Source: Winslowiella toletana (GTDB taxonomy: Bacteria; Pseudomonadota; Gammaproteobacteria; Enterobacterales; Enterobacteriaceae). Taken from it: DNA of 64,000 nucleotides. The notes beneath the pieces were generated by a model. That model did no database searches. It saw nothing but the letters and a program-made list of their open reading frames with translations, and was not told where the DNA came from. The DNA lies in contig NZ_CP134152.1 of assembly GCF_032164335.1 (NCBI RefSeq), forward strand, positions 4,464,001-4,528,000, in the 5' to 3' direction. Below are positions 12,402 through 21,038 of this stretch, one piece after another. Numbering within the stretch: the first letter of the stretch is position 1; every line of letters starts with the position of its first letter. Both the position numbers and the translations under genes were made by a program.

Positions 12402-13301
12402 TCAGCTACGACAGTGGCGGCGAAACAGCTGGGCTAAATAGGCACCCATTGGCGTCAGCGCCGTATCACGCCGCTGAATCAGAAAAAAGGTCGCCTTCGG
12501 CAACGGTTCATCCAGCTCCAGCGCCACCAGCTGGCGACCGAGTATGGGGTCGGAAATCACATCATTCGATAAAATACTGACAAAATCGCTCTGCGCGACC
12601 AGGCTGGTACAAGCCATAAAAGTTTCACAGGTAACTACAATCGATGGCGCCATTCCCATACTGCCAAACAGGTCGTGCAGCAGCCGATAGTAGCTGCCTT
12701 TTGGCGTCGGCATGGTCCAGTCGCAATGCTGCAACTCAGCCAGCGAGCGCGCATCCTCGCAGGGGTGCCCTTTTCGCACCACCACCTGATACTCTCTTTC
12801 CATCAGCCGCTCAAAGGTCAGCTCATTATCAAGGTGACTTTCATCATAGGTATTGATGGTGAAATCCAGCTGGCCCTGCCGCAGTTCCGGGATCATCGAC
12901 ACCAGCTGCCCTTCAACAATCCGCACTTTCACATTCGGATACTCGCGATGAAACTGGGTAATCACCTTTGGCATAATCGTTCTCGCCACGCTGCCACCGA
13001 CGCCGATATTCACCCGCCCACTCGCCAGCCCAAGCCGCTGCTGAATATCTTCCTGCGCCACACGCAACTCTTCCAGTACCAGGCTCGCATGTTTGAAAAA
13101 ATTATCACCGATATCGGTTAACACAATGCCCTGCTGACGCCGAATAAACAGCCGCGCGCCAAGCACCTCCTCCAGTTCCTGGATCGCCTTAGTCAGAGCA
13201 GGTTGCGACAGACCAGAAGCGCGGCTGGCGGCACGGATACTGCCCTGGCGCGTCACGTCAACGAAAGCGCGTAGCTGATGCAGTTTTATTGAAGCAGGCA
13301 T
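12402..13301 (-). CDS. abgR: LysR-family regulator AbgR
   Basis: The product is 299 residues. It has an N-terminal LysR winged helix (KLHQLRAFVDVTRQGSIRAASRASGLSQPALTKAIQELEEVLGARLF, about 6-55) followed by the two-lobed effector domain starting near GRVNIGVGGSV. It lies divergent from abgA, exactly as AbgR does in E. coli, where it controls the abgABT operon. The name rests on similarity plus this arrangement. The inducer is presumably p-aminobenzoyl-glutamate or a related compound. Confidence 0.9.
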   Translation of the reverse strand: MPASIKLHQLRAFVDVTRQGSIRAASRASGLSQPALTKAIQELEEVLGARLFIRRQQGIVLTDIGDNFFKHASLVLEELRVAQEDIQQRLGLASGRVNIGVGGSVARTIMPKVITQFHREYPNVKVRIVEGQLVSMIPELRQGQLDFTINTYDESHLDNELTFERLMEREYQVVVRKGHPCEDARSLAELQHCDWTMPTPKGSYYRLLHDLFGSMGMAPSIVVTCETFMACTSLVAQSDFVSILSNDVISDPILGRQLVALELDEPLPKATFFLIQRRDTALTPMGAYLAQLFRRHCRS

Positions 13302-13806
13302 AACGATAGATTCCTGTGGCGGGAACGGTTAATACCAATGCGTCAGGTGATAACCATTAATTATCAATAGCAAGATACTGGCATCTTATGCAGGATAATA
13401 CCATTGTGTACATTCGAAAAAAGCGCTTAAAAAAACGTTAACTATTCGCAATAGATTCCACTATTTCTTCTGTTCCGGAAGAAATAGCACAACAGCGACC
13501 GGCATTAAAAAATAATTTAAAAAAGCAAAATAATATCGAGCAATCTTCATATTTTGTTAATTAGTCTCCGTTAAGCATAAATAAATATTATCACGAGAGC
13601 CATTTGAAATAAGCAATGCTTATCGATGCCTGAGCAGCGGCCAGACGCGTTAGCAGGCGCTTATTAGCATAAATAAGATAGCGATCACACTTAAACCATC
13701 AGAATACTGTTGACCGCAGAAAAATAAAATTCCCACCTGAACTCAATGTTCAGAAAATTAAATCTGTCGATAATTTTTTACGACACCGTGTTAGAGGATC
13801 AAATTA
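13302..13806. other. 505-bp divergent abgR-abgA control region
   Basis: This is AT-rich intergenic DNA between two divergent genes, with no open frame I would call. It must carry both promoters and LysR-type binding sites. I could not single out a T-N11-A palindrome with confidence. A GAGG ribosome-binding site lies just before abgA. Confidence 0.45.
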
Positions 13807-15120
13807 ATGAGTACCCTTTCTGAACTGGTAGACGATCTATTTCCACGCCTGCAAAGCTGGCGACGCGATTTCCATTTATACGCTGAATCAGGCTGGCTGG
13901 AATTTCGCACTGCCACTCTGGTGGCCGATGAGTTGAATCGTTTAGGTTATCAATTACAGCTGGGTAAACAGGTGATTAACGCCGATGCGCGTATGGGCTT
14001 ACCTGCTGACGCAGTGCTGGAGCAGCAAGAAGCACGAGCGCTGGCTCAGGGCGCGTTGGCTGAATGGCTACCGCACTTTTCCGGCGGCTTCTGCGGTATC
14101 GTCGCTACGCTGGAAACCGGTCGTCCGGGGCCGACCATCGCGTTTCGCGTCGATATGGATGCTCTCGATCTGAATGAAAAAATGGCTGACGATCACCGTC
14201 CGTTTCGCGACGGCTTCGCGTCCTGTAACCCGGGCATGATGCATGCCTGCGCCCATGACGGCCACACCACCATCGGGCTGGGCCTGGCAACGGTGCTGAT
14301 GCAGATGAAATCGGCACTGAGCGGCACGATTAAGCTGATTTTCCAGCCTGCTGAAGAAGGAACCCGCGGTGCCAAATCGATGGTCGAGGCTGGAGTGGTA
14401 GATGATGTGGATTTCTTTACCGCCATCCATATTGGTACCGGCGTACCCAGCGGCGAAGTGGTATGCGGCAGCGACAGCTTTATGGCAACCACCAAACTGG
14501 ACGTGACCTTCCGCGGCGTCGCTTCTCATGCTGGTGCACGCCCGGAAGAGGGACGCAATGCGCTGCTCGCCGCAGCGCAGGCCACGCTGGCACTGCATAA
14601 TCTGCCGCAGCACAGCGGCGGCAGCGCCCGGGTAAATGTCGGCGTGCTGCAGGCAGGAACCGGACGTAATGTGGTGCCTGATTACGCCTTTATGAAAATT
14701 GAAACACGCGGTGCCAGCAACGAAATCAATGACTTTATCTGTCAGCAAGCCCACCAGGTACTGAGCGGTGCCGCAGCGATGTATGGCGTTGAACATCAGG
14801 TGAAACTGATGGGCGCGGCGCGCAGCAGCCAGCCCACGCCTGGCTGGGTCAATTTTATTCATCGCCAGGCAGAAGCGCTTAATGAATTCACCTCGGTGGT
14901 CGACCGCCGCCCGCAGGCCGCCGGCTCTGAAGACGCCACCTATATGATGGAGCGCGTAAAACAGCGTGGCGGTCAGGCTTCCTATGTAATTTTTGGCACC
15001 GAGCTTAGCGCTGGTCACCATAACGAAAAATTTGATTTCGATGAAAGCGTGATGCCCGCAGCGATTAAAACCCTCGCTACGCTGGCACTGAACCTGCCCG
15101 ACTATCAGGAGGCACCATGA
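13807..15120 (+). CDS. abgA: p-Aminobenzoyl-glutamate hydrolase subunit A
   Basis: This 437-residue M20-family amidohydrolase cleaves p-aminobenzoyl-glutamate, a folate breakdown product, together with AbgB. Visible motifs are RRDFHLYAESGWLEF near the N-terminus, the metal-ligand region RVDMDALDL and MHACAHDGHT, the catalytic Glu in PAEEGTRGAKSM, and SHAGARPEEGRNAL in the dimerisation domain. It starts after AGAGGA and overlaps abgB by 4 bases (ATGA), giving translational coupling. It is the first gene of abgABT, divergent from abgR. Confidence 0.96.
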   Translation: MSTLSELVDDLFPRLQSWRRDFHLYAESGWLEFRTATLVADELNRLGYQLQLGKQVINADARMGLPADAVLEQQEARALAQGALAEWLPHFSGGFCGIVATLETGRPGPTIAFRVDMDALDLNEKMADDHRPFRDGFASCNPGMMHACAHDGHTTIGLGLATVLMQMKSALSGTIKLIFQPAEEGTRGAKSMVEAGVVDDVDFFTAIHIGTGVPSGEVVCGSDSFMATTKLDVTFRGVASHAGARPEEGRNALLAAAQATLALHNLPQHSGGSARVNVGVLQAGTGRNVVPDYAFMKIETRGASNEINDFICQQAHQVLSGAAAMYGVEHQVKLMGAARSSQPTPGWVNFIHRQAEALNEFTSVVDRRPQAAGSEDATYMMERVKQRGGQASYVIFGTELSAGHHNEKFDFDESVMPAAIKTLATLALNLPDYQEAP

Positions 15121-16565
15121 ATCAGCCGGAACTGACCGACTTTATTAACCACTATATCGACAGCCAGCAGTCACGATTTAGCGCCATCAGTGATGCCATC
15201 TGGGATTGCCCGGAAACGCGCTTTCGCGAAACTGAGTCAGCAGAACGCCTTGCCAGCGCACTGGAGCAGGAGGGTTTTCAGGTTAAACGCGGCGTTGGCA
15301 ATATCGATACCGCATTTATCGCCAGCTACGGCAGTGGTAAACCGATTATCGCCCTGCTTGGAGAATACGATGCGCTGGCCGGGCTCAGCCAGAAAGCCGC
15401 CACTGCCTCACCAGAACCGCTGGTGGAGAACGGAAATGGACACGGCTGCGGTCACAATCTGCTGGGCACCGCCGCGATGGCTGCGGCCTTTGCGCTAAAA
15501 AAACTGATGGAACAGAATGGCCTGAGCGGTACGGTGCGCTTCTACGGCTGTCCTGGCGAAGAGGGCGGCTCCGGCAAAACTTTTATGGTTCGCGAAGGAT
15601 TATTCGACGATGTCGACGCCGCCGTAACCTGGCATCCTGAATCATTCAGCGGCATGTTTAATAACACCACCCTCGCCAATATCCAGGCCGCCTTCCAGTT
15701 TAAAGGCGTCGCCGCCCACGCCGCCAACTCTCCCCATCTGGGGCGCAGTGCGCTGGACGCCGTCACGCTGATGAATACCGGTGCGAATTTCCTGCGTGAA
15801 CATATCGTGCAGGAAGCACGCCTGCACTATGCCGTGACCAACAGCGGCGGCAGCTCACCTAATGTGGTGCAGGCAGATGCAGAAGTGCTGTATCTGATCC
15901 GCGCCCCTCAGCTCGATCAGGCACAGGATATCTATCAGCGGGTAATTAACATCGCCAAAGGTGCCGCGCTGATGACCGACACCAAAATGACTCTGCGCTT
16001 CGATAAAGCCTGTTCCAACTACATCCCTAACCGGGCGCTTGAGCAGGTGATGGCCAGCTATGTGCGTGCTTTTGGCGTACCGCAATACAGCGACGAGGAA
16101 GTGGCGTTTGCCGGCCAGATCCGCGCCACCCTGACCCCTGATGATATCCGTAATGCCAAACTGAACATCGCCCGTACCGGCGGCGAAGCGGGCCAGGCAT
16201 GGGTGCAAACGCTTGGCGAAAAAGTGCTGACCGATGAAGTTGCCCCTTACGCCATCACTCAGGAACTGATGTACGGCTCGACAGATGTTGGCGATGTCAG
16301 TTGGGTGACGCCGACCGCGCAATGTTTTAGCCCGTGCTTCGCCCTCGGCACGCCATTGCATACCTGGCAGCTGGTGGCACAGGGACGCACCTCAATCGCC
16401 CATAAAGGCATGTGTCTTGCAGGAAAAATAATGGCCGCCACTGCTGCCACTTTACTTGGCGATACGGAGGCGCTGGCGCGCTGCCGGGCTGAGTTTGCAG
16501 CTGCGCGAGCGCAACAGCCCTACCACTGCCCGATACCGGCTGACGTGACGCCTACTCCACTGTAA
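15117..16565 (+). CDS. abgB: p-Aminobenzoyl-glutamate hydrolase subunit B
   Basis: This 482-residue M20-family protein is the partner of AbgA. Motifs include ISDAIWDCPETRFRE, LLGEYDALAGLSQKA, the metal site GHGCGHNLLGTAA, the catalytic Glu in GCPGEEGGSGKTFM, and AHAANSPHLGRSALDAV. The C-terminus carries the second metal His region (ARTSIAHKGMCLAGKIMA). Together the two subunits release p-aminobenzoate and glutamate in the cytoplasm. Confidence 0.96.
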   Translation: MNQPELTDFINHYIDSQQSRFSAISDAIWDCPETRFRETESAERLASALEQEGFQVKRGVGNIDTAFIASYGSGKPIIALLGEYDALAGLSQKAATASPEPLVENGNGHGCGHNLLGTAAMAAAFALKKLMEQNGLSGTVRFYGCPGEEGGSGKTFMVREGLFDDVDAAVTWHPESFSGMFNNTTLANIQAAFQFKGVAAHAANSPHLGRSALDAVTLMNTGANFLREHIVQEARLHYAVTNSGGSSPNVVQADAEVLYLIRAPQLDQAQDIYQRVINIAKGAALMTDTKMTLRFDKACSNYIPNRALEQVMASYVRAFGVPQYSDEEVAFAGQIRATLTPDDIRNAKLNIARTGGEAGQAWVQTLGEKVLTDEVAPYAITQELMYGSTDVGDVSWVTPTAQCFSPCFALGTPLHTWQLVAQGRTSIAHKGMCLAGKIMAATAATLLGDTEALARCRAEFAAARAQQPYHCPIPADVTPTPL

Positions 16566-16649
16566 AGCACGACCCGATCGGCTCAGCACTGACTCAGCCG
16601 ACGTAATAACAATAAAACTGTTTAATGCAAATACGACGAGGGGAAGACC

Positions 16650-18179
16650 ATGAGTGAAGCTGCAACGCCAGCGGGAAAAAGCCCGGGGAAACTATTTAAC
16701 TGTATTGAGCGCATCGGCAATAAAGTTCCCAATCCGTTTCTGCTGTTCGTCTATCTGATCGTCATACTAATGGTCGCTACGGCGGTCATCAGCACGCTGG
16801 GCCTGGCGGTTAAGAACCCCGCTAACGGCGAAATAGTCCGGGTAAATAATCTACTGAGCGTCGCGGGATTACAGTGGATCTTCCCGAATATTATCAAAAA
16901 CTTCAGCGGCTTTACGCCACTCGGCTCGATTCTGGCGCTGGTGATTGGTGCCGGGCTGGCGGAAAAAGTCGGCTTACTGCAATCTCTGATGGTGAAAATG
17001 GCGTCACGCGTCAGCCGGCGTTACGCCAGCTATATGGTGCTGTTTATTGCGTTTTTCAGCCACATCTCTTCGGATGCGGCGCTGGTGGTAATGCCACCGC
17101 TCGGCGCGCTGATTTTTATTGCCGTGGGTCGTCATCCGGTGGCCGGCCTGCTGGCAGCCATCGCTGGCGTTGCTTCTGGCTTTACGGCTAATCTGCTGAT
17201 TGTGACTACCGATGTGCTGTTGTCCGGTATCAGTAGCGAAGCAGCAAAAGCCGTCAGCGATACGGTGCACGTCAGCGTGATCGACAACTGGTACTTTATG
17301 GCCACCTCGGTGATTGTGCTGACCATTGCCGGAGCAATACTGACCGATAAGTATGTAGAACCGCGCTTACCCGCCTGGGAGGGCGGCACCGGTGAACGTC
17401 TGGCAGCCCTGACGCCATTAGAAAATAAAGGTCTGAAAGCTGCCGGCATCGCCGCACTGCTGTTTATCGGCCTGATGGCGCTGCTGGTGGTGCCAGAAGG
17501 TGCGCCACTGCGCGATCCGCATACCGGTTCAATTGTGCCTTCGCCGTTTATTAAAGGCATCGTGCCGATTATCATTCTGTTTTTCTTTACCGTGGCAATT
17601 GCCTATGGCGTCGTCACCAGACAGATCCGTCGCCCGGACGATGTGCCCAATCTGCTGGTCGAACCCATGAAGAGCATGGCGGGCTTTATTGTGATGGTGT
17701 TCCCGCTGGCGCAGTTCGTGGCGTTCTTTAACTGGAGTAATATGGGTAAGTTTATGGCTATCGGCCTGACCGATGTGCTGGAAACTGCCGGCGTCAGCGG
17801 CGCACCTGCCTTTCTCGGTTTGATGTTTCTCTCGGCGTTTTTATGCATGTTTATCGCCAGCGGTTCTGCCATCTGGTCGATTCTCGCGCCGGTATTTGTG
17901 CCGATGTTTATGCTGCTCGGTTTTCATCCGGCGTTTGCCCAAATGATTTTCCGCATCGCTGATTCTGCGGTACTGCCGCTGGCCCCAATGTCACCGTTCT
18001 TACCCCTGTTTCTCGGTTTCTTGCAGCGCTATCGCAAAGATGCTCAGCTCGGCACCTATTACGTGCTGATATTCCCCTACCCGCTGGTGTTCTTTAGCGT
18101 CTGGATCCTGCTGCTGCTGGCATGGTACATGCTTGGCTTACCCATTGGGCCGGGGGTTTATCCACAGATGCCGCAATAA
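16650..18179 (+). CDS. abgT: p-Aminobenzoyl-glutamate transporter AbgT
   Basis: This 509-residue inner-membrane protein of the AbgT family has multiple hydrophobic segments, beginning at about residue 28 (NPFLLFVYLIVILMVATAV). Conserved stretches include GAGLAEKVGLLQSLM, HISSDAALVVMPPLGALIF and ADSAVLPLAPMSPFLPLFLGF. E. coli AbgT imports p-aminobenzoyl-glutamate; some relatives are reported as drug exporters. It lies 84 bp after abgB with a GAGGGGAAG ribosome-binding site and completes the operon. A stem (GGGCAAT/ATTGCCC, 18188-18107 region end at 18207) follows the stop. Confidence 0.95.
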   Translation: MSEAATPAGKSPGKLFNCIERIGNKVPNPFLLFVYLIVILMVATAVISTLGLAVKNPANGEIVRVNNLLSVAGLQWIFPNIIKNFSGFTPLGSILALVIGAGLAEKVGLLQSLMVKMASRVSRRYASYMVLFIAFFSHISSDAALVVMPPLGALIFIAVGRHPVAGLLAAIAGVASGFTANLLIVTTDVLLSGISSEAAKAVSDTVHVSVIDNWYFMATSVIVLTIAGAILTDKYVEPRLPAWEGGTGERLAALTPLENKGLKAAGIAALLFIGLMALLVVPEGAPLRDPHTGSIVPSPFIKGIVPIIILFFFTVAIAYGVVTRQIRRPDDVPNLLVEPMKSMAGFIVMVFPLAQFVAFFNWSNMGKFMAIGLTDVLETAGVSGAPAFLGLMFLSAFLCMFIASGSAIWSILAPVFVPMFMLLGFHPAFAQMIFRIADSAVLPLAPMSPFLPLFLGFLQRYRKDAQLGTYYVLIFPYPLVFFSVWILLLLAWYMLGLPIGPGVYPQMPQ

Positions 18180-18187
18180 AAACCACG

Positions 18188-18207
18188 GGGCAATGGTGAC
18201 ATTGCCC
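18188..18207 (+). terminator. Probable terminator after abgT
   Basis: GGGCAAT (18188-18194) pairs with ATTGCCC (18201-18207) across a 6-base loop, shortly after the abgT stop. The following bases are pyrimidine-rich but lack a pure U-run. Confidence 0.5.
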
Positions 18208-18231
18208 TTCCAATTTATTTGCTCTTAACAC

Positions 18232-18360
18232 TCAGCATCATCTCCCTTCAAATAATCTTCCTTAGGTTTTTATCCTTATTTTTCTGCGTCTGATAGCAAT
18301 TTAAAAATTTAAATCCAGCCATCAGCCTTGAATTATAATCACAATATTAGTGAGGGAAAT
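18232..18360 (+). repeat. Direct repeat, copy A (degenerate leader of the MFS gene)
   Basis: From TCAGCATCATCTCCCTT at 18232 to about 18360 this segment matches 19482-19615. About 90 bases are nearly identical, followed by a 7-base indel and scattered substitutions. Copy B is the immediate leader of the MFS gene at 19626; copy A has no intact gene after it. Confidence 0.9.
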
Positions 18361-18380
18361 AAAAAAATAGGCTCTGCTAA

Positions 18381-18428
18381 GGCATATTAAAGAGATTTGG
18401 TCAGCGCAATCCTGATGCTGGCGTGGTA
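18381..18428 (+). pseudogene. Internal fragment of a lost MFS gene copy
   Basis: About 48 bases starting GGCATATTAAAGAGATTTGG and ending in CCTGATGCTGG resemble the inside of the MFS gene at 20439-20503, with an internal gap of about 12-15 bases. The fragment sits directly after the copy-A leader, so it appears to be what is left of a second MFS gene copy after deletion of most of the coding sequence. Confidence 0.7.
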
Positions 18429-18593
18429 CTTACCGGCGGTGACAGATGATACACACCTGTGATACAAAAATCCCTGAACGATATCAATCGCCGGGGTTAG
18501 ATTGCACGGCACATTTAATTCTGGCCTCGAAATTAATTAATTCGGTTATCATTACTTTTGATGGATGATTAGGATAAGATAAGGATGACTGAA

Positions 18594-18812
18594 ATGAATG
18601 ATCTATACCTCAAAGTTGACAGAATTGCGGGTGAATCAAAGGATGCTAATCATTTAGGTTGGATAAATATTTCAAAAAAACACATCTATTCTCAGATAGA
18701 TAAAATCAAAGCGCAGCAAAGGGCTATCAGTTACCTCCCCTTGAATTATAATCCATTTTATCATTTTGACAGAATGACAAACCTCACTCAAAAAAAAATT
18801 AAATGTGAATAA
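18594..18812 (+). CDS. Truncated Hcp-like protein (type VI secretion tube family), probably non-functional
   Basis: The product is 72 residues. The N-terminus NDLYLKVDRIAGESKDANHLGWINI matches the opening of Hcp (DUF796) proteins, including the GESKD and H-x-G-x-I pattern. After about residue 27 it leaves the family and stops, whereas Hcp is about 160 residues. ATG at 18594 has AAGGA 8 bases upstream; a start at 18585 is less likely. The gene is AT-rich relative to its neighbours and lies 9 bp before a DUF943 gene, inside the islet bounded by the MFS leader repeats. It is probably the decayed remains of an orphan Hcp or Hcp-effector gene. Confidence 0.65.
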   Translation: MNDLYLKVDRIAGESKDANHLGWINISKKHIYSQIDKIKAQQRAISYLPLNYNPFYHFDRMTNLTQKKIKCE

Positions 18813-18821
18813 TGAACAGAT

Positions 18822-19283
18822 ATGAAATTTACGAAAGTATTGATAATTTTAAGTGTTTTATTTTTCAGTTATGCATTATGGTTTTCCTTCAGAGAGACAA
18901 TTATTGTCGGCGTACATAAAGAAGGTGATGCGGCTTATATCTTAGTAAAAAACCCTCCATTACTTGACAGTACCAAATTAAAATGGTGGAAGGAAAAAAG
19001 CAAATATATTAATGAAAACTATCATATTCCAGTTAACTCCAGATACGGCTTTATTTTAATAATGGATTATGGAAAAGGCTATCAATTATTACCCAGTGAT
19101 AAAAGGCTCAGTTCTGTTTATCCATCAGATTATATTTGCTTTGATGACATGAAGACCAGGATAAACTGTCTCTATAAAAATTGGATAATGTCCATCTCAA
19201 ATAAAGCTGATGGTGAACTCAATATTAAGATTAAAAAAAACAGTTATACTCTGAAAAAAGATGGTTCTGTAGTCGAGGATTGA
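18822..19283 (+). CDS. DUF943 family membrane-anchored protein
   Basis: This 153-residue protein has a single N-terminal membrane segment (about residues 5-21, VLIILSVLFFSYALWF) followed by a periplasmic domain. DUF943 hallmarks are the IIVGVHKEGDAAYILVKNPP segment, the WW pair in LKWWKEKSKYINENYHIP, and the near-invariant CFDDMKTRINC with two cysteines that may form a disulfide. The function of DUF943 is not established. Its place after an Hcp-like fragment suggests an immunity-type partner of a lost type VI effector, which is inference. It is strongly AT-rich, consistent with horizontal acquisition. Confidence 0.85.
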   Translation: MKFTKVLIILSVLFFSYALWFSFRETIIVGVHKEGDAAYILVKNPPLLDSTKLKWWKEKSKYINENYHIPVNSRYGFILIMDYGKGYQLLPSDKRLSSVYPSDYICFDDMKTRINCLYKNWIMSISNKADGELNIKIKKNSYTLKKDGSVVED

Positions 19284-19481
19284 TGGCAACTTTTCTCAAC
19301 AAACATTGAGATTGTATCACTGATCTGCTATCCCCAAAAACTATATCATAAGCCTGAGATGCTGCATTCATACGCTCCTTTGACAGGTTCAGGGCTTCAG
19401 ATTTCTTTGCGATTCGGTCAGCGATGATCCGCTACTCTTGCACGAGTAATGGTAATATCGCGCAGGCATTCTACTTCCCCT
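19284..19481. other. Gene debris between the DUF943 gene and repeat copy B
   Basis: On the minus strand there are two short open stretches in different frames (one around LRDITITRARVADHR then stop, the other around ADRIAKKSEALNLSKERM). They read like pieces of a frame-disrupted coding sequence. I do not recognise the family and see no start signal. This fits a decayed islet rather than a functional gene. Confidence 0.3.
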
Positions 19482-19615
19482 TCAGCATCATCTCCCTTTA
19501 AATACTCTTCCTTAGGTTTTTATCCTTATTTTTCTGCGTCTGATAGCAATTTAAAAATTTAAATCCAGCCATCAGCCTTTAGCATTGAATTGTAATCACT
19601 ATGTTACTGAGGAAA
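19482..19615 (+). repeat. Direct repeat, copy B (leader of the intact MFS gene)
   Basis: This is the second copy of the repeat at 18232-18360. It ends just before the GAGGA and ATG of the MFS gene, and so contains that gene's promoter or 5' leader. The two copies bracket about 1.1 kb of islet. Confidence 0.9.
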
Positions 19616-19625
19616 AATAATTAAA

Positions 19626-21038
19626 ATGTGTTCAGCATCTTCCCAGGGGATGGAATCCTCTTCTGCACGACCCAATAAAATCAATAGTTTAGCTAATCGT
19701 ATTGATGCCCTTCCCGCTTCCGCCGGTCTGTGGCGATTTATTACTTTACTGGCTCTCGGCGGTTTTTTTGAACTCTACGATTTGTTTCAAACGGGATATA
19801 TTAGTTCAGGATTAATCGCTGAAAACATATTTCATATTGGTAGTGAAGGTGTCTTTGGAATATCCGACCAGGCGGCCTTTGCTTCGGCGACATTTTTGGG
19901 CTTGTTTATTGGTGCCAGCTTACTGGCTCCCTATGCCGACCGTTTTGGCCGCCGGATGACCTTTATGTTTGCCCTCGCCTGGTATGGCGCTTTTTCCCTG
20001 CTGATGGCGTTCCAGAATCAGGCCGAGTGGATTATCTTTTGCCGCTTCCTGGTTGGCGTTGGGCTGGGCATCGAGCTGGTCACTATCGACACTTATCTGA
20101 CCGAGTGGGTACCCACTCATCTGCGCAGTAAAGCCTTCGCTTTCGCCTTTTTTATCCAGTTCCTGTCGGTACCCACCGTGGCCTTAATGTCCTGGTGGCT
20201 GGTGCCACAAACCATTTTCGGCCTGACCGGCTGGCGTTATGTGGTTATTGCTGGCGCGCTCTGCTCACTGATCATCTGGTTTATCCGTAAAAACCTGCCC
20301 GAATCGGCGCGCTGGCTGGCGCAGCAAGGTCGTCATCAGGAAGCACATCAGGTGCTCAGCAGGATGGAACAGCGCTGTGGCGCGCCGGTCGGGCAAGATT
20401 TTCCACAGAATGATGCCGCCGCCCAGCTGCCGCAACGAGGCACATTTAAAGAAATTTGGTCAGCGCAGTACCGTAAACGTACCCTGATGCTGGTGGTAAT
20501 GAATTTCTTTCAGGCAATTGGATTTTTTGGCTTTGGAAACTGGCTACCGGCGCTGCTGTCGGGCAAAGGGACCACCGTCACCCACAGCCTGCTGTATGCC
20601 TTCTTTATCACTCTCGCCTACCCGCTGGGTTCGCTGATTTGCAGCCGCTACGCCGACAGAATGGAAAATAAATGGCAGATTGTCCTCTCTTGCCTGATGA
20701 CGGTGGTGTTCGGCACGCTGTTTGCGTTTCAGACTAATGCGCTGCTGCTGATCGCCTGTGGCTTCCTGATTACCTGGTCGAACGCCTGGCTGACTTACAG
20801 CTATCACGCCTATCAGACCGAAATCTTTCCCACCCATATTCGGGCGCGCGCGGTCGGTTTTTGCTACTCCTTTAGCCGCCTGTCTACGGTATTCAGCAGC
20901 ATTATGATTGGCCTGATTTTGCAGTACGCCGGTACTCAGGGCGTGATTGCCTTTATCGTGGTAAGTATGCTGATGGTGATGCTATCGGTGGGCATATTCG
21001 GGCCGAAAACCCGCGGTATTAATCTGGAAAATATCTGA
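19626..21038 (+). CDS. MFS transporter, metabolite:proton symporter type
   Basis: This 470-residue, 12-segment inner-membrane protein has classical MFS motifs: YADRFGRRMTFMFALA after the second segment, RFLVGVGLGIELVTIDTYLTEWVP (segment 4 region) and PESARWLAQQGRHQEAHQVL before the central loop. It resembles the sugar/aromatic-acid symporter branch, but the substrate is unknown. It is single-standing, with a strong terminator at 21044. Its leader is duplicated upstream (18232) together with a piece of its coding region. Confidence 0.85.
   Translation: MCSASSQGMESSSARPNKINSLANRIDALPASAGLWRFITLLALGGFFELYDLFQTGYISSGLIAENIFHIGSEGVFGISDQAAFASATFLGLFIGASLLAPYADRFGRRMTFMFALAWYGAFSLLMAFQNQAEWIIFCRFLVGVGLGIELVTIDTYLTEWVPTHLRSKAFAFAFFIQFLSVPTVALMSWWLVPQTIFGLTGWRYVVIAGALCSLIIWFIRKNLPESARWLAQQGRHQEAHQVLSRMEQRCGAPVGQDFPQNDAAAQLPQRGTFKEIWSAQYRKRTLMLVVMNFFQAIGFFGFGNWLPALLSGKGTTVTHSLLYAFFITLAYPLGSLICSRYADRMENKWQIVLSCLMTVVFGTLFAFQTNALLLIACGFLITWSNAWLTYSYHAYQTEIFPTHIRARAVGFCYSFSRLSTVFSSIMIGLILQYAGTQGVIAFIVVSMLMVMLSVGIFGPKTRGINLENI

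Follow-up and report, generated by a model that had tools for sequence, protein, structure and literature searches.

The closest described counterpart of the locus analyzed here is the T6EC1/T6IC1 pair. Its DUF3289 effector rounds E. coli cells when placed in the periplasm, and co-expression of its DUF943 partner keeps them rod-shaped; its authors propose a colicin-M-like action and leave type VI secretion still to be shown (PMC11148199). A Klebsiella survey ties DUF943 to DUF3289 (PMC12469244), and a Pantoea figure legend places the two side by side (PMC10389763). DUF3289 is also a tested type VI effector in Aeromonas, where the immunity protein is a different, three-helix one, and DUF943 is thus not the sole answer to DUF3289 (PMC12135965). 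The locus considered here lies in a 64,000-nucleotide stretch of the Winslowiella toletana genome (5.0 Mb, two contigs; NZ_CP134152.1, positions 4,464,001 to 4,528,000; hereafter the window), in which a small islet upstream of a major facilitator superfamily (MFS) transporter gene holds an intact DUF943 gene behind the broken start of an hcp gene. This islet is probably the remains of a DUF3289-DUF943 type VI effector/immunity module, with DUF943 as a candidate orphan immunity gene against non-self DUF3289 toxins.

The window copy resembles T6IC1 in its immunity family, in a predicted N-terminal membrane helix and in scoring over the Pfam cut-off; it differs in that no DUF3289 gene is present at its locus, and the window copy is a candidate protector (PMC11148199). 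The orphan immunity arrays of Vibrio cholerae type VI clusters likewise keep immunity genes after effectors were displaced or lost, whereas the window has a lone gene, probably left by deletion, at a metabolic locus (PMC5361080). Like the islet, the hcp islands of Pantoea and Erwinia comprise low-G+C DNA beside hcp, there with putative effector genes; unlike it, they lie in the main type VI loci, and the main text names neither DUF943 nor DUF3289 (PMC3235180). The BtpeA-BtpiA pair of Bacteroides fragilis, represented here by the entry title and chain A name of PDB 9JDI, belongs to a different phylum, and no sequence similarity to it was detected.

Downstream of abgT, which ends at 18179, leader copy A is followed by MFS gene scraps, a 75-amino-acid open reading frame (ORF), DUF943, a short stretch, leader copy B and the MFS gene:

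18232..18371, plus strand: first copy (A) of the MFS gene leader, behind abgT; a 98-nt core 98% identical to copy B, with an aligned extension.
18380..18441, plus strand: remnants of another MFS gene copy, several short interior blocks aligning to 20438-20557; most of the gene is lost.
18585..18812, plus strand: 75-amino-acid ORF, an Hcp start (residues ~4-31, perhaps to ~50; PF05638 below cut-off, matches within the genus) followed by unassignable residues.
18822..19283, plus strand: intact DUF943 gene (PF06092), 153 amino acids; predicted N-terminal helix, then an alpha/beta domain; candidate orphan immunity gene.
19349..19481, plus strand: islet right flank, common to Winslowiella iniecta at the same position (blastn and alignment).
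19482..19625, plus strand: leader copy B, which precedes the intact MFS gene; several other Enterobacterales have an alignable leader.
19626..21038, plus strand: intact MFS transporter gene (PF00083/PF07690); W. iniecta protein 95% identical.

The DUF943 product matches PF06092 nearly over its full length (profile positions 10-148 of 151; E 4.8e-33; 114.3 bits against a cut-off of 25); NCBIfam gives only a weak match below cut-off. Residues P46, W55, Y87, C106 and C116 are invariant in a 20-sequence alignment, and the structure model (predicted local distance difference test, pLDDT, 88.8) has a helix at residues 2-22 that is predicted to span the membrane. The 75-residue ORF ends 9 nt before DUF943 and matches PF05638 at profile positions 1-24 of 129 (17.8 bits against a cut-off of 23.5; E 0.0042), not as a full Hcp domain over the cut-off. 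In a genus survey of 37 genomes, the own one included, this ORF has matches at E<=0.1 in 27, and in 26 of the 27 they span residues ~4-31; because of these matches the ORF is read as an Hcp start despite its sub-cut-off profile score. Homology searches gave no reliable homologue for its remaining residues. An origin of this later part from the reverse strand of an ABC permease gene, proposed by a match in two relatives that beat 500 shuffles, was dropped, as 7 of 6694 locus chunks score at least as high and the permease of the own genome scores lower.

The islet has a G+C content of 0.29-0.37 (four 500-base windows starting at 18250-19000) against ~0.51-0.60 well outside it on either side. A family scan of its plus-strand ORFs returned the Hcp and DUF943 families only, and an Rfam search of 18000-19800 returned nothing at E<=1. 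No DUF3289 was matched near the locus, nor among the listed tblastx matches to fetched loci, and the defining arrangement of the module, DUF3289 directly upstream of DUF943, is absent from the window locus. DUF943 is here an intact immunity-family gene without a cognate effector at its locus, which is what defines an orphan immunity gene; most of the islet is debris. Part of what an earlier note on this DNA had proposed is borne out by these results: an AT-rich islet with a truncated Hcp-like gene and an intact DUF943 gene, vestigial of a type VI cassette whose effector is gone, and a membrane-anchored DUF943 protein kept as a candidate orphan immunity protein, a role with experimental backing for a family member (PMC11148199). 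The note had also counted a short Hcp-like gene conserved without an effector in close relatives as evidence against its reading; a 99%-identical short ORF does occur in protein cluster P0002 (11 members, listed under a single contig of ~1.1-1.2 kb), and the scrap is not private to this genome.

The genus survey identifies the probable lost partner. DUF3289 is found in 25 of the 37 genomes, DUF943 in 27 and Hcp in all 37. The survey yielded 144 DUF943 matches, a figure that counts fragments and the one in the window. Immediately upstream and in the same orientation, a DUF3289 covering at least 245 of 272 positions precedes 81 of them and a partial one 28 (241-244 positions in four cases); the other 35 have none. 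Seventeen of these 35 follow another DUF943 match at a distance of up to 400 bp, and some of them are fragments of a single gene; two solitary DUF943 genes in genome G020 have transposase-like ORFs, recognised by eye, between them and a DUF3289 gene or piece. Hcp lies close to DUF943 at five sites at least (own genome at 395 kb, G023:C7, G031:C39, G019 at 1957 kb and G021 at 4986 kb). These counts make DUF3289 the standing partner of DUF943 and Hcp an occasional neighbour. The suggestion of the earlier note that DUF943 answered an Hcp-borne toxin is not supported, as the usual partner is DUF3289. DUF943 without hcp, which the note had held to speak against its reading, is largely the rule at genus level, and the immunity idea survives it.

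Several other loci show variants of the pair. The array in the own genome at L053 (G000:C1:395-399 kb) repeats DUF3289-DUF943 units with near-identical starts, includes one shortened DUF3289 and ends in a full Hcp. At L213 (G027:C97:52.6-55.9 kb), one complete DUF3289 is followed by four DUF943 genes; ahead of two of these, only the final ~30 residues of DUF3289 are present, an arrangement that looks like stepwise displacement of toxins with the immunity genes kept. The own genome carries DUF3289 and three DUF943 genes at L054 (G000:C1:3881976-3884290), whereas two relatives (L202, L203) have one orphan DUF943 each at this site, which is flanked by an xni-like and an rlmM-like gene. Longer DUF3289 proteins (~415-450 amino acids) with a different start are present at L210, L211 and L212, and that at L211, the one scanned, has a weak PAAR match below cut-off.

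The original module would have been a DUF3289-DUF943 type VI effector/immunity pair that had an hcp gene nearby. At least one deletion would then have taken the toxin gene, presumably DUF3289, and all of hcp but its start, leaving DUF943 intact. In array A of the own genome (395-399 kb), a broken Hcp start stands directly before a DUF3289-DUF943 unit. The gene order of the window would follow if a deletion began within an Hcp of this kind and stopped where DUF3289 ends. A single helix would anchor the protein in the inner membrane and leave its domain on the periplasmic side, where the protein may bind incoming DUF3289 toxins and prevent cell-wall damage. If made and protective, this copy would act as orphan immunity against DUF3289 effectors of non-self origin.

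Several points weigh against this reading. First, the W. iniecta copy of DUF943 is broken. Second, no plus-strand promoter-like site was seen. Third, the extent of the Hcp start is less uniform than the common match suggests: in G029 only residues 30-66 match, and in G002, G010 and G021 the listed Hcp-gene match extends to residue 51-54 at 40-47% identity, from which the Hcp-derived part is possibly longer than 26 residues. The first two points, together with the debris that makes up most of the islet, favor the most serious competitor, pure decay, in which DUF943 is simply the last frame still unbroken and has no present function. Against it stand the intact frame with its family-invariant columns and a 35-codon in-frame block common with W. 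iniecta, where 11.5 synonymous differences in 19.8 sites contrast with 6.5 non-synonymous in 85.2, the non-synonymous rate (dN) lying well below the synonymous (dS); this block is short and may record an earlier period with a toxin. Intact orphan DUF943 genes also recur at other sites, as in G019 and G031, where a single intact copy occupies a site at which the own genome has DUF3289 and three DUF943 genes, and a protein cluster with 13 members, listed under a single contig of ~1.1-1.2 kb, contains a 98%-identical intact protein. Pure decay is a possible outcome, though clearly the less probable one. For the retention of DUF943 proposed by the earlier note, selection is only partly indicated, the W. 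iniecta copy being broken.

An evolved Hcp, formerly fused to a toxin and matched by DUF943 as the dedicated immunity gene, would explain the Hcp start just upstream of DUF943 across a 9-nt gap. It is unlikely, as full Hcp is a separate gene behind DUF943 at the five Hcp-DUF943 sites seen (L053 and L223 by reading, the sites in G023:C7, G031:C39 and G019 by coordinates), the one longer DUF3289 protein scanned has a weak PAAR-like start and not Hcp, and the islet's plus-strand ORFs yield only the Hcp and DUF943 families. The 75-residue ORF contains no toxin domain in frame with its Hcp start, the combination that characterizes an Hcp fused to a toxin.

Comparison with the nearest named relative found, W. 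iniecta B120, dates the islet. There, a DUF943 remnant without start or end and with a broken frame is flanked by the same GntR-type regulator on one side and by the same leader and MFS gene on the other; the locus has one leader and no abg operon. The islet right flank is alignable between the two species, and since W. iniecta holds both remnant and flank at the same position, the islet is older than the split of the two lineages. A further shared flank at 18506-18539 is weak (4 of 500 shuffles scored as high) and is not relied on. The window leaders (18232-18329 and 19482-19579; 98 nt, 98% identity, spacing 1250) are ~80-83% identical to that of W. iniecta, which points to a more recent duplication or to homogenisation of the copies. 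The leader duplication would thus be a separate, younger event, and the earlier note's idea that it trapped the islet does not hold, since W. iniecta has the broken DUF943 and the same right flank with a single leader. In a DNA search of the 37 genomes, islet DNA was found only in the own genome and W. iniecta. G029 gave a match confined to the leader, and its 475-bp regulator-MFS interval, which likewise aligns in the leader alone, is the nearest empty site. Eighty MFS loci were fetched from named genomes (three with <5500 bases upstream), and only that of W. iniecta matches DUF943, DUF3289 or Hcp queries.

These data also bear on two weaker explanations. The direct repeats flanking the islet could mark the ends of a mobile cassette, as a target duplication or a recombination site, with the islet having arrived between them; this is very improbable, as W. 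iniecta has islet remains and right flank with one leader, the repeat is the leader of a gene and can be aligned in other genera at loci that show no DUF943, and no recombinase family was found in the three islet ORFs scanned. Least credible is a repurposed DUF943, for instance with the MFS transporter whose gene it adjoins across leader B, as other genomes keep the MFS gene without DUF943 and only the W. iniecta locus among the 80 has it.

The nearly identical second leader reported in the earlier note is confirmed, and similarity continues beyond the 98-nt core with one 7-nt gap to ~18371 and 19620, just 5' of the MFS start. The piece of MFS interior that the note placed after copy A does match that gene, not as a single 48-base piece but as a patchwork of short blocks with deletions. 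Positions 18380-18408 match ~20438-20467, the next block, from 18409, matches ~20481-20494 after a 13-nt deletion, and weaker pieces follow. The local alignment scores 65, whereas the best of 200 mononucleotide shuffles reaches 43, and a 22-nt block is 100% identical within the W. iniecta MFS gene. Recombination between abgT-leader-MFS and islet-leader-MFS forms, or tandem duplication followed by deletions, may have produced the duplication. Serratia, Rahnella, Ewingella, Cedecea and others have alignable counterparts of the leader (19482-19625), at ~64-82% across 50-140 bases, and the leader may hold a conserved regulatory site. Here the GntR-type regulator and the MFS gene are separated by a LysR-abgA-abgB-abgT block (12402-18179) that W. 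iniecta and G029 lack at this place; in several Pantoea and a Mixta, abgT adjoins the MFS gene. In 23 of the 80 loci the MFS gene has abgT upstream (in 18 within 270 bp), and this gene order favors loss of the abg operon in W. iniecta and G029 over gain here.

More speculatively, and with much less confidence than the orphan immunity reading itself, DUF943 of Enterobacterales and BtpiA may share one ancient immunity fold against DUF3289 toxins that is undetectable by sequence, the orphan copy being a live shield against foreign DUF3289 and the leftover hcp start a mere translation leader for DUF943. The DUF943 profile matched nothing among PDB sequences at E<=1, and literature searches on DUF943, DUF3289, BtpeA/BtpiA, 9JDI and B. 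fragilis with colicin M, the last covering titles and opening lines of abstracts, found neither a statement of such fold sharing nor a paper on 9JDI. Orphan immunity genes of this kind are already known; new are this locus, its state in the sister species and the possible fold link to BtpiA. Together with W. iniecta, the islet provides an example of type VI module decay in which the toxin is gone and the immunity gene is the last to go. If the link to the Bacteroides immunity protein is true, the 9JDI complex would suggest how DUF943 recognises DUF3289 and make that specificity testable.
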